This document shows, one piece after another, positions 6,277 to 17,977 of a DNA stretch of 64,000 bases; within the stretch, counting starts at the first letter, position 1, and each line of letters begins with the position of its first letter. Source of the DNA: Loktanella sp. PT4BL (GTDB lineage Bacteria; Pseudomonadota; Alphaproteobacteria; Rhodobacterales; Rhodobacteraceae); assembly GCF_003201935.1 (NCBI RefSeq), contig NZ_QJJL01000006.1:62001-126000 (forward strand). The letters are read 5' to 3'. The notes below the pieces were generated by a model. That model saw only the letters and a program-made list of their open reading frames with translations. It was not told the origin of the DNA and searched no databases. Position numbers and translations under genes: made by a program.

Positions 6277-7641
6277 ATGCGGATCATAGCACGCCTCTGC
6301 GCCATAGCAGTTGCGACAACCCCAGCCTACGCCCAGTCAGCAAATAGTCTTCAAGAGCAGGCCGAAGCCGCCCTTGTCGCAGGCGCGCCCGCCACAACCC
6401 TGCGCCTTGCCCAAGAGATGCTATGCGCGCAACCGGACGATTTTGTTGCGCTCTACCTGCTGGCACTTGCCCAGTCGGACCTGAATGACCCGCAAAGCGC
6501 CGCAGCCTCTGGTGCAAGGGCCTATGCCGCCGCGACAAGCCAGGACACCCGCTTTGAAACTGCGCGCTTTGTGGCCGGCGCACATTTTCAGGCCGGTCAC
6601 TATACCCGATCTGCATTCTGGTTGCGACGCGCGGCCAATCACGCATCCACCGAAGCCGATTTGCAATTCATCGCAGAGGCCTATGCCAATACGGTTGACA
6701 CCAACCCGCTCTCGATCGCGGTCACCGCCGCAATTGCGCCCACCGATAATATCAACAACGGGTCAGAAGACGGTGTCCTGCGGCTGGAAGGGATCGACCT
6801 GACCTTCGTGCTGCCCGAAGACCGCCGCGCGCTTTCCGGTATCGGCTTTTCTGCCAGCACCGAGCTGCACTACAGGATTTCAGAGACCGCGAACCAGGTC
6901 ACCACACTTAACGCAACGCTTGCGGGCGATACCTATCTGTTGTCAGACGACGCAAAGGCACTGCTTGCTGACTCTCCCGATCCCGAAGTGCAGGCAATTG
7001 ATGGTCGCGATTTTGCGACAGTGACGGCCAGTGTGGGCATCGCGCGACAGCAAAACAACATCAGCCCCCTCGGTCCAGTCATCCTCGGGGCGGCCTTCGG
7101 GACCTATTGGGAGGGCAGCGAAAGGCTGCTCGACTTTCACGACCTCAGCCTCGAACAGACCGTTCCCCTTGGCAACACGAGCCGCCTTCGGCTTCGCGCG
7201 CTCCGGCGATGGCAGGCCGCTCGCACCCCGACGCTATACGATGCAAACATCTACGACCTGACCATCGCCTATGACCGGATGCTGGCAAACCGCGACCAGT
7301 TGCAACTTAGCCTGATATCACAGCGCAATGAGGCAGGACCGGAAAATTCTTTCGACGAATACCAGATCGGCATCGGCTATCTGCTGGCCGAGCCCGTTTT
7401 TGGTGCAAAATTCTCTACGTCTTTCAACATCGGGTTTCGCACATTCGAGGAATTCACAACCACACTCGACGGCCGGGAAGACCGCTTTTACCTCGCTTCG
7501 GCAACTGCGGTGTTCGAGGAGTACAGCTACTTTGGCTTCTCCCCCAGCGTCACGATCTCGGGCTCCCGTATAGACTCAACCGCCGAGGAAAACACGACAT
7601 CAGCAGCACAGATCCTTTTCGGGGTCGCATCGCGGTTCTAG
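6277..7641 (+). CDS. TPR plus C-terminal beta-barrel protein, Slam (DUF560)-like
   Basis: A 454-residue predicted outer-membrane protein. It has a signal peptide (MRIIARLCAIAVATTPAYAQ), then an alpha-helical Ala-rich region of roughly 130 residues with TPR character (LRLAQEMLCAQPDDFVALYLLALAQ, YTRSAFWLRRAAN). About 300 residues of alternating amphipathic strands follow, ending in SRF with a terminal Phe, the usual beta-barrel signature. This layout matches surface lipoprotein assembly modifier (Slam/DUF560) proteins. I chose the ATG at 6277, preceded by AGGGGGCG; a TTG at 6247 is less likely. It is divergent from a CAP-domain lipoprotein. The family call is moderate; an unrelated TPR-barrel protein is possible. 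Confidence 0.65.
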   Translation: MRIIARLCAIAVATTPAYAQSANSLQEQAEAALVAGAPATTLRLAQEMLCAQPDDFVALYLLALAQSDLNDPQSAAASGARAYAAATSQDTRFETARFVAGAHFQAGHYTRSAFWLRRAANHASTEADLQFIAEAYANTVDTNPLSIAVTAAIAPTDNINNGSEDGVLRLEGIDLTFVLPEDRRALSGIGFSASTELHYRISETANQVTTLNATLAGDTYLLSDDAKALLADSPDPEVQAIDGRDFATVTASVGIARQQNNISPLGPVILGAAFGTYWEGSERLLDFHDLSLEQTVPLGNTSRLRLRALRRWQAARTPTLYDANIYDLTIAYDRMLANRDQLQLSLISQRNEAGPENSFDEYQIGIGYLLAEPVFGAKFSTSFNIGFRTFEEFTTTLDGREDRFYLASATAVFEEYSYFGFSPSVTISGSRIDSTAEENTTSAAQILFGVASRF

Positions 7642-7696
7642 GGACAGGACCGATTGGCGTTTGCATCACCACAGCAAAGCCCAGTATGCACAGACC

Positions 7697-8797
7697 ATGA
7701 CAACACCCTTTGAAATCTTCATGGTCTGCACCCCCGGCTTTGAACAGACCCTCCTCGCCGAAGCGCTGGAGAACGGCTTTGCCAACGCGCAGATCACCGC
7801 AGGCGGGGTCACGATCACCGGCACATGGGAGGACGTCTGGCGCGCCAACCTTGTCATGCGCGGGGCCACGCGGATCTTGGCGCGCGTGGGAAGCTTTATG
7901 GCATTCCATCTTGCCCAACTCGACAAACGGGCGCGCAAATATCCATGGGGTGACGTGTTGCGTCAGGACGTCCCTGTACGGGTTGAGGTCAGCACTTCGA
8001 AGAAGTCGAAGATTTACCATGCAGGTGCCGCAACCCAGCGGATCGAGACCGCGCTGAAAGAGAGCCACGGCATGACAATCGCGGCAGACGCGCAGGTGGC
8101 AATCAAAGTCCGCATCGACGACAACCGCGTCACCATCAGCGTCGATACCTCTGGCGAGAGCCTCCACAAGCGCGGCCATAAAGAGGCGGTTGGGAAAGCC
8201 CCGATGCGCGAGACACTGGCCGCACTGATGCTGCGCGACTGCGGCTATGACGGCCGCGAACCGGTGCTCGACCCGATGTGCGGCTCGGGCACCTTCGTGA
8301 TCGAAGCCGCCGAAATCGCCTGTGGCCTCTTCCCCGGCCGGACCCGCGACTTTGCCTTCCAGCAACTTGCAACCTACAAGGACGACAGCTGGCGTAAGGT
8401 GGGTGAAACCCGCGCGCCCACCCAGCATTTCCACGGCAGCGACCGTGACGCAGGCGCCATCCGCATGGCCACCGCCAATGCCGAAAGGGCCGGCGTGGCC
8501 GACCACATCACCTTCCAGAACCTCTCCGCCACCGACATCAAACGCCCCGAAGGCCCACCGGGTCTGATTATCTGCAACCCGCCCTATGGCGGACGGATCG
8601 GCAACCAGAACATGCTCTATGGTGTCTATGCAGGTCTCGGCGAGGCGATTAAACGCGAATTCACGGGCTGGCGGGTTGGCATGGTCACCAGCGAAGCAGG
8701 CCTCGCCAAAGCATCAGGCCTGCCTTTCAAACCCAAAGGGCCCGCCATTCCACACGGCGGCCTCAAGGTCTGGCTCTTCCAGACAGACGCACTCTAG
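7697..8797 (+). CDS. THUMP-domain class I RNA methyltransferase (RlmL/Trm14-like)
   Basis: A 366-residue protein. The N-terminal half carries a THUMP RNA-binding domain (about residues 50-150, VAIKVRIDDNRVTISVDTSGESLHKRG). The C-terminal Rossmann methyltransferase has motif I PVLDPMCGSGTFVIEAAEI and the N6/N2-guanine-type catalytic motif ICNPPYGGRIG. Family members methylate 23S rRNA or tRNA guanosine. The length equals the first half of E. coli RlmKL, so this is the single-enzyme form. I chose the ATG at 7697, where THUMP homology begins; no clear Shine-Dalgarno is visible. Confidence 0.88.
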   Translation: MTTPFEIFMVCTPGFEQTLLAEALENGFANAQITAGGVTITGTWEDVWRANLVMRGATRILARVGSFMAFHLAQLDKRARKYPWGDVLRQDVPVRVEVSTSKKSKIYHAGAATQRIETALKESHGMTIAADAQVAIKVRIDDNRVTISVDTSGESLHKRGHKEAVGKAPMRETLAALMLRDCGYDGREPVLDPMCGSGTFVIEAAEIACGLFPGRTRDFAFQQLATYKDDSWRKVGETRAPTQHFHGSDRDAGAIRMATANAERAGVADHITFQNLSATDIKRPEGPPGLIICNPPYGGRIGNQNMLYGVYAGLGEAIKREFTGWRVGMVTSEAGLAKASGLPFKPKGPAIPHGGLKVWLFQTDAL

Positions 8798-13564: not shown

Positions 13565-13789
13565 TCATGCGCTGAAGATCTGTGGCGTAATAATGCGGGC
13601 CTGTGTCCAGGCCTTTGCGAAGGGGCCTTTCTCCGGGAGCTCCATCCGGCGCGCGGCAGACAACACCCATGTCAGGATGCAAAGCGGCAGCGTGGCCAGA
13701 AAGATCAGCCCGAAATAGGCATAGTATTCGCGCTTTGGCGGCGCTGACCGGGCCCGTGTGTGGGGCATGTCTGTTGTAAAATCGGTCAT
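13565..13789 (-). CDS. pufQ: PufQ, puf operon cytochrome/bacteriochlorophyll-related protein
   Basis: A 74-residue protein with one transmembrane segment ([22 protein letters not shown]) and the conserved PufQ tail [23 protein letters not shown]. PufQ is required for normal bacteriochlorophyll synthesis in Rhodobacter, probably in delivery of intermediates. GGAGG precedes the ATG, which overlaps the bchZ stop as ATGA. Its puf promoter probably lies within bchZ, as in relatives (inference). Confidence 0.9.
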
Positions 13790-15246
13790 TTGCGTCCTCC
13801 AGTATTGGATTGAAGTGTTTCGACGGTCTCAAGAACGACCCGGTCATTGCCGGCGTCGAGGGCTGCGCGCTCGGCTGCGTCACGCAGCGTTTTGGCGGCA
13901 GAAATTCGTGTCAGGATCGGGTGGGTCGCCACGATCTCGTCGAGCTTGGCCTGTGCGTCGGCATCCCAGGGGAAATCGCGGCGCAGCGGTGTCAGCGTGG
14001 CATCGGTGGCATCCATGTCGCTGCCCAGCGGCAGGATATGGAACAGCGCGTCAAACAGACCGTTGCAGACCTCTTGCAGCAGATAGGTTGCGCCCGCGTA
14101 CCCCATGAACGGCGTGCCGGTGGCACGGCGGATCGCAGCACCGGGGAAGCTGGCAGGGATAAACACCGGCGATGGGCCATGCCCCGCCTTCATCTCGGCC
14201 ATATACATCTTCTCGTTGATTGATCCCAAAACGATCAGCGGGCGCTTGGTGTGGATCAGGTTGCGCACTTCTTCGTTGTTGGTTTTCTTGCCACGGCAAC
14301 GGGCCACGGCAAAGGCACAGGGAAAGCCCAGATCACCTTCAAGGAAATGGCGCACGCCGCGGGCATAGGTTTCATTCGCAACAATTGCGAATTCGGCAGT
14401 GGCAAAGAAATCCTGCGTGACCGAACGCCACAAATCCCACACCGGTTTGATGGTCGAATGTTTCTCTTGCTCGATGAACGGCTCTGGGTCGAGGCCCGTC
14501 AATTCACCCAGCTTGCGCAGGAATTTCGTGGTGGAATCAATGCCGAACGGCGCTTGCAGGTATGGCTTGCCCAGCACCTCACAAAGGCCGCGCCCGAATT
14601 CGCGGTACATGGTGACGTTCACATCGGCGTTCACCAGATTGCGCATCTCGGCCACATGGGCACCGAGGGGCATCACCATATTGATCTCGGCACCAATGCC
14701 TTCGACCAGACGCCGGATTTCGGCCAGATCAGAGGGCATATTGAACGCGCCATACATCGGCCCAAGGATATTCACGCGCGGCCTCACACCTTCTTCGCGT
14801 TTTTTCTCAGGCGGCATCCGGCCTTTGGTCATGCCGAATTCCGTGAAAATCCACGTCATCGCACGGTCGGCACATTCCCATTGGTCTTCATCAATGGTGC
14901 GCGGCAAAAAGCGTTGAATGTTGGTGCCCTGCGGCGTCACACCGCCACCGATCATCTCGGCAATGGACCCGGTCACAACAACCGCAGGCAGTGCGGGGTC
15001 AAGCGTCTTCCAGGCCCGCTTCATCGCGTCCTCGGTGCCCTCACCCATCTCGCTTTCGCCCAGACCGGTGACGACAATCGGCAATTCATGCGGCGGCAGG
15101 CCATCGGTGTAATGCAACACGGATGTCACTGGCAGGTTCTCACAACCCACTGGCCCGTCGATAACTACCTGCAAACCTTTGACGGCACAGAAGGCGTAGA
15201 CGGCACCCCAGTAACCACCCGCACGATCATGATCGGTGACTAGCAT
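13786..15246 (-). CDS. bchZ: Chlorophyllide a reductase subunit Z
   Basis: A 486-residue nitrogenase-like MoFe-beta homologue. With BchY it forms the catalytic part of chlorophyllide a oxidoreductase, reducing ring B (C7=C8) to give a bacteriochlorin. The N-terminus [19 protein letters not shown] and cluster-ligand region [19 protein letters not shown] are characteristic. The start is the ATG at 15246, overlapping the bchY stop as TGATG; a TTG one codon earlier is less likely. Confidence 0.96.
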
Positions 15247-16850
15247 CAAATCATCTCCTGCGCTTTGGCGGCACGCGCCATCTTATCGAGCTTCTTCTGA
15301 TGCTGCGCACGGAAGTCAGGCCGCAAATTCGGCGCACCCTCCCAGACACCGGCGGTGTCGCCACTGCCCACGCCCTCGAAGAAGTCGCGCATCTTGTCCA
15401 TTTTCTGTTTGCCCGCGATGGCCGCATTGACGACCTGCGCCAGGGAACCGGCCCCCGCAGGGCCCATCAGCGGACGGGCTGAAATCAGGTTGGTAAAGTA
15501 AAGCGACGGGATACCCGCCTCTTTGGCGTGCTGGACCACCGGTGTGGTGCCAATCGCCAGATCAGGTTTGATGGCATCGACAGCGGCCAGATCATCCTCA
15601 AGCGAAGCGCGATATTTGATTTTCACGCCTTTGGCAGCCAGCCATTCCGCATCGGGGCGCGACCATTCCGTCTTGGGGCAAGCCGTGCCGACGTATGGCA
15701 CATCCGCGCCGCTTTCGATCAGCAAACGCGCCACCAGAAGCTCGGAGCCTTCATAACCCGACAGCGTCACCGTGCCATTGATCTGCGCGCCAGCCAGCGC
15801 ACCCTTAATGGCGGGCAGGAACGCGTTCTGCGCCGCTGCAATCTGATCCGGGGCGACATTGTAAGCATCACCAATCGCCGCCAGCCAGGCGGCTGTGCCA
15901 TCGTGACCCACAGGGGCCGAACCCACGATCTTGCGACCAGCCGCCTGAAATTCACGGATGGATGCCGTGTAGAACGGGTGGATCGCCGCCGCGACACCGC
16001 AATCAAGGGCGGCGTAAAGCTCGCGCCATTCACGGGTCGGAACCACAGGACCGGCGGCAAGGCCCATAGGGGCCAGCATCGCGCCAATCATCATGGGATC
16101 AGCGGGGAACATCTCGCCCAGCAAGGCCACATTCGGACGGTCGGATTTACCACCCACAGGGCGGGCAACAGGGCCTGCCTTAATCTCTTCGCGGGCATAT
16201 TGCAGCATCGCACCGGCCAGCACATCCTTGGCCTCGGCGTGGGTCGGGATACCGAAACCGGGCACATCAATTCCCACGATCCGCACGCCATTAATCTCTT
16301 TGGGCAGCAACCGCAGCGGCACACCGGATGCGGTGGGCACGCAGAGGTTGGTTACCACGATGGCGTCATAGCGATCAGGATCAGCCATATCGTGGACACT
16401 CTCGCGGATGTCCTCGAACAGTTTACCCGTCACCAATGTCTCGGAATTGAACGGAACATAGCCGACAGACCGGCGCGCCCCGTAAAAATGCGAAACAAAC
16501 GTGAGACCGTATACACAACAAGCCGAACCGGACAGAACCGTGGCCACACGCTTCATCCGAAGGCCTACACGCAAAGACCCGAACGCAGGGCACATGCTCT
16601 GCGGTTGATCGTGGGGTCCTTGCGGATAATCCTTCGCATATTGATCAAGGATCTCGGATTTGCCAGCGGCACGCGCGGCAGCTTCCATTGATCCGGCACT
16701 GGCGGTGCAACCGCCCTCAAGCGCTGTCGCCTGCTGGGACACATCCAGCGCTTCGGGCGAATCCGCACGTGCAACACCCTCGATGATCTGGACCTGTCCA
16801 GCCTCATCATAGCCAACTTCATAGCCTTGGGTGTTAGTGTCATGCGTCAT
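15246..16850 (-). CDS. bchY: Chlorophyllide a reductase subunit Y
   Basis: A 534-residue NifD-like subunit of chlorophyllide a oxidoreductase. Cluster-ligand cysteines are visible in [36 protein letters not shown] and [21 protein letters not shown] lies about 10 nt upstream of the ATG. The 5' end overlaps by 11 nt a 48-codon frame that separates it from bchX. Confidence 0.96.
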
Positions 16851-16986
16851 ATTTGACAGGCTCCTTGGCGGCAGGTGCGGTCGCCATGATATCGCGCAGA
16901 AGGCGTTTCATCTGTGCGGGGGTGGCGCGGGCAAGCATTTCTTGCACTTCGCGTTCAACGTTCTTGCGGGCGTCAGGCGTCGTCAT
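16840..16986 (-). CDS. 48-aa unannotated ORF between bchX and bchY
   Basis: The ATG at 16986 opens a 48-codon frame: [20 protein letters not shown], then ATPAQMKRLLRDIMATAPAA, then KEPVKYDA. A near-perfect Shine-Dalgarno (GGAGGTGA, 4 nt from ATG) precedes it. It overlaps the bchX 3' end by 14 nt and the bchY 5' end by 11 nt, giving a translationally coupled bchX-ORF-bchY chain. The protein would be a charged amphipathic helix without cysteines or membrane segments. I do not recognise it. It also carries the bchY Shine-Dalgarno, so a purely leader role is possible. Confidence 0.6.
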   Translation of the reverse strand: MTTPDARKNVEREVQEMLARATPAQMKRLLRDIMATAPAAKEPVKYDA

Positions 16987-17977
16987 AGATCACCTCCAGG
17001 CTCTCTTTCGGCTGGGCGTTCTTGCCGCGCATGTCCACATCGGTGGCGGGTACAAGTTGATAGTCGCCGCCGGTGTCCTTGGCGTCGAACAGTCCCAGCA
17101 GTCCATCTTGATCAAGCGGGTTGGGGCGCACAGGCGGGGCAATGCCCACAGCCTCGGCCAGACCTTCAAACATCGGACCCCATTCGCTTTGATGGGTGCC
17201 AACGATCTGATAGTTCGCGCTTTTCTTTCTCAGGTCATCGTTTTGCGGGATTGCAGCAAGGACAGGTATGCTAACAGCTTCGGCGAAAGCCTGCGCTTCT
17301 CCTGTGCCGTCATCTTTGTTGATGACAAGTCCAGCGACCCCAACGTTGCCACCCAGTTTTCGGAAGTATTCGACTGCCGAGCAGACATTGTTAGCAACAT
17401 AAAGCGATTGGAGGTCATTTGAGGCAACCAAGATAACTTTCTGCGCCATATCGCGCGCGATGGGCAGGCCGAAGCCGCCGCAGACAACGTCGCCCAGGAA
17501 ATCCAGCAGGACATAGTCAAAGTCCCAATCATGGAAGCCCAGCTTTTCAAGCAATTCAAACCCGTGAATAATCCCGCGCCCACCACAGCCACGGCCCACT
17601 TCCGGTCCGCCAAGCTCCATCGCGAAAACACCGCCGCGCTTGAAGCAGACATCACCAATGGCAACCTCTTCGCCAGCAAGCTTTTTCTTTGCGGAAGTCT
17701 CGATAATTGTGGGGCAGGCTTTGCCGCCAAACAGCAGGCTGGTGGTGTCTGATTTCGGATCACAGCCAATCAGAAGCACGCGCTTGCCCATCTCGGCCAT
17801 CATATGGCTGAGGTTGGCCAACGTGAAAGATTTGCCGATCCCGCCTTTGCCATAGATCGCGATGATCTGGGTCTTTGATGTGGGTTCGCCCTGCGGGACC
17901 TCCAGCGTGGGTTCCTCATGCGCTTCATCGCGCAGGCGCTGGTCGAAATCCTTCAGGTTCGGAATTTCATCTTTCAT
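16973..17977 (-). CDS. bchX: Chlorophyllide a reductase iron protein subunit X
   Basis: A 334-residue NifH/BchL-like ATPase that passes electrons from its 4Fe-4S cluster to BchYZ. The P-loop YGKGGIGKS is at residues 42-50. Cys ligands lie in [10 protein letters not shown] and [10 protein letters not shown], and switch residues in [15 protein letters not shown]. Its ATG overlaps the bchC stop as ATGA. The BchX-specific N-terminal extension of about 35 residues before the P-loop separates it from BchL. Confidence 0.96.

Follow-up and report, generated by a model that had tools for sequence, protein, structure and literature searches.

In the 64,000-nucleotide stretch of Loktanella sp. PT4BL DNA that was analysed (the window), the genes for chlorophyllide a reductase lie in an overlapping bchCXYZ-pufQ string, and a small open reading frame (ORF) sits between bchX and bchY. 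The features are as follows.

16973..17977, minus strand: bchX, chlorophyllide a reductase iron protein (TIGR02016, E 5.5e-132)
16990..16997, minus strand: Shine-Dalgarno sequence GGAGGTGA within the final bchX codons, 3 nt before the small-ORF ATG
16973..16987, minus strand: left copy TATGACGACGCCTGA of an imperfect direct repeat (bchX tail and small-ORF start), found by eye
16840..16986, minus strand: small ORF (type A, see below), 48 codons and a stop, predicted helical-hairpin protein
16888..16941, minus strand: conserved protein core EMLARATPAQMKRLLRDI, residues 16-33, from the alignment of 38 members
16861..16866, minus strand: AAGGAG in the small-ORF tail, likely the bchY Shine-Dalgarno sequence, 10 nt before the bchY ATG
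16840..16851, minus strand: right copy TATGACGCATGA of the imperfect direct repeat (small-ORF tail and bchY start), found by eye
15246..16850, minus strand: bchY, chlorophyllide a reductase subunit Y (TIGR02015, E 9e-223)
13786..15249, minus strand: bchZ (TIGR02014, E 2e-246)
13565..13789, minus strand: pufQ, 74 aa (Pfam PufQ, E 1.8e-27)

Chlorophyllide a reductase, the enzyme that commits the pathway to bacteriochlorophyll a, is generally taken to consist of BchX, BchY and BchZ alone. It is a relative of nitrogenase (Pfam Fer4_NifH and Oxidored_nitro). Overlaps run along the whole string: 4 nt between bchC (named from its position and an ADH_N match) and bchX, 14 nt between bchX and the small ORF, 11 nt between the small ORF and bchY, 4 nt between bchY and bchZ if the latter begins at its listed TTG or 1 nt (TGATG) if it begins at the ATG at 15246, and 4 nt between bchZ and pufQ. 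An earlier sequence-only reading of this DNA had described an ATG-initiated frame of 48 codons at these coordinates, with the same overlaps and a product free of cysteine, and our coordinates and translation agree. It had also noted a very strong Shine-Dalgarno sequence 4 nt before the ATG. GGAGGTGA is indeed the only occurrence of its motif in the window with an ATG 2-6 nt downstream (chance mean 0.25), although the distance is 3 nt. The motif is no specific evidence for the small ORF, because it lies in bchX codons and because the junction of relatives without the ORF retains a similar motif directly ahead of bchY. No RNA structure stands out at the bchX-bchY junction (z -0.13). The layout in the window is that of a coupled ORF or leader, in which both neighbours are overlapped and the downstream Shine-Dalgarno sequence lies inside the frame.

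Related junctions were collected by BchX searches at the level of the family (295 genomes, 118 positive), the order (61 genomes, 29 positive, all of the same family, with the 10 best kept as loci), the genus (56 genomes, 32 positive) and the class (337 genomes, 23 positive), and by a BchX protein search of genome contigs, from which the best 80 of 575 were kept. These sets overlap one another, and the family search contributed all its 118 positives except seven (G083, G123, G154, G157, G172, G181 and G233). Four of the resulting 250 loci gave no BchY match (L094, L147, L184 and L250); the other 246 represent 220 distinct junctions, and the counts that follow are based on 222 distinct BchX+BchY sequences. 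Junction ORFs were assigned to classes A, B and C by hand, L134 and L204 being put in type A by eye.

The window's own type, A, has the signature LxxARPEQxxRLLxDI and occupies the junction in 41 of the 222 operons. Type B, which mostly begins M(F/L)DLDxLAxLxxAL, was found in 43, and type C, whose long members look helical by eye and are loosely related to one another, in 12. Seven operons carry very short coupled ORFs. In 104, a class that takes in operons first called gapped but with an in-frame ATG or GTG near the bchX end, bchX and bchY overlap directly or lie less than 25 nt apart, and in 75 of these bchY starts inside bchX. The remaining 15 have other gaps, of which two pass the overlap test for a coupled ORF. 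The sequence-only reading had taken bchX to run straight into bchY in known clusters; this holds for only about half of the operons sampled, 104 of the 222 with gaps below 25 nt included. The 21 loci that the class-level search contributed from beyond the family (L229-L249) all lack types A, B and C; 17 are direct and 4 belong to the other gaps. Types B and C are apparently unrelated to type A, and profile comparison detected no similarity between A and B. Most type B and C ORFs start within bchX and end at the bchY start.

Among 118 gapped operons, 99 contain a coupled ORF, beginning within bchX and terminating on a bchY start, against 47.5 expected when the gap letters are shuffled; the shuffle preserves gap length and hence frame, so that the frame itself is not tested and the expectation is not small. 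The 99 ORFs start at -14 (67), -8 (30) or -11 (2) relative to the bchX end, and overlap bchY by 4 nt (71), 11 nt (22), 8 nt (3), 1 nt (2) or 14 nt (1). Applied to the named loci, the same rule is satisfied at 46 of 83 bchX-bchY, 19 of 78 bchY-bchZ, 0 of 84 bchC-bchX and 0 of 69 bchZ-pufQ junctions. Because 19 bchY-bchZ junctions also fit, the presence of an ORF alone says little.

In eight hand-chosen type A pairs, assumed independent on the tree, pN/pS over window residues 6-35 is 0.34 (pS 0.394, pN 0.135), with 72 synonymous and 73 non-synonymous changes (p 1.8e-10) and a third-position excess (35/28/82 at codon positions 1, 2 and 3). The ratio w of the window copy to near relatives is 0.05 (L032), 0.31 (L210) and 0.17 (L214). 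Two of the 18 listed type A pairs are without constraint (L041/L042, w 1.41; L010/L135, w 1.01) and two are saturated. The value for bchX in the same eight pairs is 0.046, a far stronger constraint; the enzyme thus changes much more slowly than the small protein. In the alignment of 38 members from many genera, A21, Q25 and L29 are invariant and D32 is nearly so. Type B (0.48 and 0.17) and type C1 (0.42) are constrained as well, and C2 gave 0.72 in a saturated set. In these data the small ORF behaves as coding sequence and overlaps both neighbours, and from its pattern of change it is almost certainly a protein-coding gene.

AlphaFold2, run on 19 alignment rows, predicted helices at residues 4-20 and 23-36 (mean pLDDT 77.9, with residues 11-30 at 91-92; pTM 0.45), in line with the helix-forming product anticipated from the sequence. 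The predicted fold fits a small binding protein, without indicating its partner. Family searches placed the protein nowhere. For the window protein, Pfam returned no family at E<=1 and NCBIfam a single weak match (E 0.041, scoring 12.8 bits where the cut-off is 60). The 38 type A members matched nothing in PHROGs and 15 weak Pfam families (E<=0.1), each with at most two members and the best at E 0.0023. Profile search of the PDB gave a best E of 0.24 and fold search no match. Several candidate identities were rejected. A relationship to PCP_red (PF08369, the BchZ tail) had a probability of 0.85 percent, over 10 columns, in hhalign of type A against 69 BchZ tails. The ORF is not PufQ, as neither the window protein nor the 38 members match PF05398 and the window's pufQ lies separately at 13565..13789. 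Pfam includes a model for AnfG/VnfG, and that family was found neither for the window protein (E<=1) nor for the 38 members (E<=0.1). A fragment of bchX or bchY is rejected because BchY starts alike in relatives with and without the ORF.

The type A protein appears to be confined to its junction. Its profile gave 15 strong matches (E 1.3e-14 or better) in the 56 genus genomes, all about 25 nt or less behind BchX, and the remaining matches all have E above 0.01. In the 295 family genomes, all 16 matches below E 1e-6 lie within 200 nt behind BchX, and that of G144 sits further along, in a long gap; 14 of the 16 sequences also went into the profile, which makes their recovery at the junction partly circular, and what informs is the absence of confident matches elsewhere. 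Eight further family matches, at E 0.002-0.009, fall away from the junction and look like chance; seven are in open frames of more than 400 codons. Across the 295 family and 56 genus genomes, including those without BchX, no confident type A homologue was found outside the bchX-bchY junction. The sequence-only reading had proposed a real small gene, and the low pN/pS, the conserved core, codon-position counts unlike synonymous-like drift and this confinement all support it. Its conservation is partial: homologues occur in 41 of the 222 operons and are missing from many close relatives.

The window's genus illustrates this. Thirty of its 32 BchX-bearing genomes yielded loci (the window's own genome is present twice); 16 carry the type A ORF, including the divergent L204 that the profile missed, and 14 do not. 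The two without a fetched locus, G348 and G356, gave no match to the type A profile. In all 14 ORF-less genomes bchY begins at an ATG 8-14 nt inside bchX, which leaves no remnant of the ORF. A BchX+BchY tree of 39 rows requires at least 10 changes of ORF state (13-17 in five shuffles), and sister rows can differ, L037 having the ORF and L038 lacking it. Because type A also occurs in other genera (e.g. Roseovarius, L077, L106), the pattern suggests loss within the genus rather than repeated gain, a direction that goes beyond what the tree proves. Relatives without the ORF have a single stretch resembling TATGACGACGCCTGA and TATGACGCATGA at bchX-bchY.

Taken together, these data lead us to propose, with a probability of about 0.7, that the small ORF is a true gene within the bchCXYZ-pufQ string, encoding a dispensable, translationally coupled and reductase-dedicated helical hairpin while also serving as a coupling relay. 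Ribosomes finishing bchX would reinitiate at the small ORF, or initiate there independently, by way of the Shine-Dalgarno sequence in the bchX tail. They would then read its 48 codons and terminate 11 nt beyond the bchY start, and the likely bchY Shine-Dalgarno sequence AAGGAG would lie in the tail just translated. We infer translation and coupling in vivo from these signals. On the layout of Shine-Dalgarno sequences and overlaps, the ORF would hand coupled translation on from the iron-protein gene to that of the catalytic subunit. Such a relay is quite probable, since the overlaps are kept across ORF types and the genus holds no decayed remnants. The same translation would also yield the helical-hairpin protein, which may act on chlorophyllide a reductase or on its assembly or regulation. 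Conservation of the helical core supports a role for the protein, and the absence of confident homologues away from the junction points to the reductase as its target. The apparently unrelated ORFs in the same slot weaken the case for a specific protein role, and we regard action on the reductase, argued from location, as tentative. Clean removal has probably eliminated the ORF on several occasions; recombination between TATGACGACGCCTGA and TATGACGCATGA could possibly excise it and restore the direct bchX-bchY overlap.

A stronger version of the protein role would make the product a reductase subunit with a structural or assembly function in the ORF-bearing lineages, positioned like the G subunits of alternative nitrogenases. 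The confinement of confident homologues to the position behind bchX, the charged two-helix fold predicted for the protein and the kinship of the reductase with nitrogenase speak for this analogy. We nevertheless consider it unlikely. The window protein matches no Pfam family, and no BchX or BchY column differs in all seven hand-picked pairs of an ORF-bearing and an ORF-less relative; three columns differ in five of the seven, with inconsistent letters. The clean absence of the ORF from close relatives, the 14 of 30 genus phototrophs described above, contradicts an essential subunit, and on gene content the small gene is accessory, not essential.

Alternatively, the ORF could be a pure coupling leader, in which translation from bchX to bchY matters and the peptide is a disposable spacer. 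This would explain why types as different as A and B, unrelated by profile, vary in the slot while the overlaps persist, and why so many genus phototrophs are cleanly ORF-less with a direct overlap. The tail KEPVKYDA, conserved in near relatives, may likewise reflect DNA signals rather than protein, because AAGGAG ahead of bchY and the bchY start lie there. The core, however, lies away from the Shine-Dalgarno and start signals and is under purifying selection; its four positions kept always or nearly always in 38 members, and the constraint on types B and C1 (pN/pS 0.17-0.48), make a mere spacer improbable. The leader and protein roles, both put forward in the sequence-only reading, are not mutually exclusive. 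A chance open frame in a non-coding spacer is hardly credible: such gaps can indeed be spanned by chance, as the shuffles and the bchY-bchZ junctions illustrate, but the ORF is under selection, against none seen in a small control of bchY-bchZ gap ORFs from relatives (pN/pS 1.64, from four pairs with 26 changed bases in all and one row reused), and its core is conserved in many genera.

The small coupled gene we favour resembles several known systems in part. PufQ (PF05398) is likewise a short gene of the overlapping bch chain, with its 4-nt overlap with bchZ. In 69 relatives in which bchZ and pufQ were found close together, however, the two lie within 5 nt in 65 and 13-20 nt apart in four, with no extra coupled ORF, whereas the small ORF is present in some relatives and missing from others. 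Translationally coupled small ORFs and leader peptides are a known general class, and the small ORF shares with them a start in the upstream gene, a stop on the downstream start and a likely downstream Shine-Dalgarno sequence inside the frame; it differs in that its peptide is under purifying selection and other ORF types are its counterparts in the slot. AnfG and VnfG, the small subunits of alternative nitrogenases, are also encoded by a small gene between structural genes of a nitrogenase-like enzyme, but the small ORF has no Pfam match to them, is patchy and is missing in close relatives.

Four of 11 plasmid records matching BchX list a 'hypothetical protein' between bchX and bchY, in a collection whose gene tables are incomplete: those of Roseobacter litoralis, R. 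ponti, Tateyamaria omphalii and Sulfitobacter sp. S190. The R. litoralis protein (WP_158308178.1, pRLO149_94) starts 14 nt before the bchX end and overlaps bchY by 4 nt. The R. litoralis and R. ponti proteins differ from type A in lacking the ARPEQ core and look type C-like by eye. The gene table of one study, based on Dinoroseobacter shibae, gives bchX and then bchY with nothing between them (PMC6052148). A literature search, mostly outside subscription papers, found no published small ORF or translational coupling at bchX-bchY. If a selected small gene does lie in the reductase operon, the gene lists of well-studied photosynthesis clusters are incomplete. The ORF-bearing and ORF-less strains within one genus make its role directly testable.

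Type A is apparently a new family of small proteins, housed at a position in a classical operon whose content proved unexpectedly changeable. A bolder reading, which we consider doubtful, is that the slot is exchangeable in Rhodobacteraceae, where unrelated small reductase regulators would be installed, swapped or removed with the ribosome hand-over to bchY unbroken, tuning an oxygen- or tetrapyrrole-sensitive step by lifestyle. The proteins concerned would, on this speculative view, be the type A helical hairpin (with CxxC in some members), the long type B protein (Cys-Pro, heme-binding-like) and the long helix of type C.

The junction ORFs vary in further ways. Five of the 41 type A members (L015, L018, L019, L134 and L178) begin with M, at most two residues and then CxxC, a possible metal-binding pair that is absent in the window copy. 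The 93-residue junction ORF at L188:1084-1362 consists of a type A start with about 55 extra residues. L187 has two successive junction ORFs, a type C one at -14..+178 and then a frame with type B sequence ending at +260. Cys-Pro occurs in 13 of 14 long type B ORFs (>=40 aa; shuffle mean 1.77, maximum 7), a set to which L005, whose CP is internal, and L187, tested with its type C ORF, also belong. Long type B ORFs with the pair were noted in L020, L027, L100, L112, L117, L124, L133, L140, L142, L169 and L181. The pair usually appears as CPF, CPH, CPV or CPM near the C-terminus, a tail that we take to resemble heme regulatory motifs. The literature search, again mostly outside subscription papers, found no such motif in a bacteriochlorophyll small protein.

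The bchY-bchZ gap of relatives, where the window has the overlap of 1-4 nt instead, contains palindromes such as GAATTTTGGCCAAAATTC and AAATCTTCGTGACGAAGATTT, recognized by eye (L037, L038, L040, L047, L048, L065 and L070, at about 7587-7815), which are possibly RNA processing or stability elements. In L035, L041 and L042 this gap carries a different hairpin-like stretch, GGGGGCGCTGCCCCC, and the bchX-bchY gap of L021 and L132 gives peptide readings of the PRSLF.KMKR type, together hinting at a repeated intergenic element.
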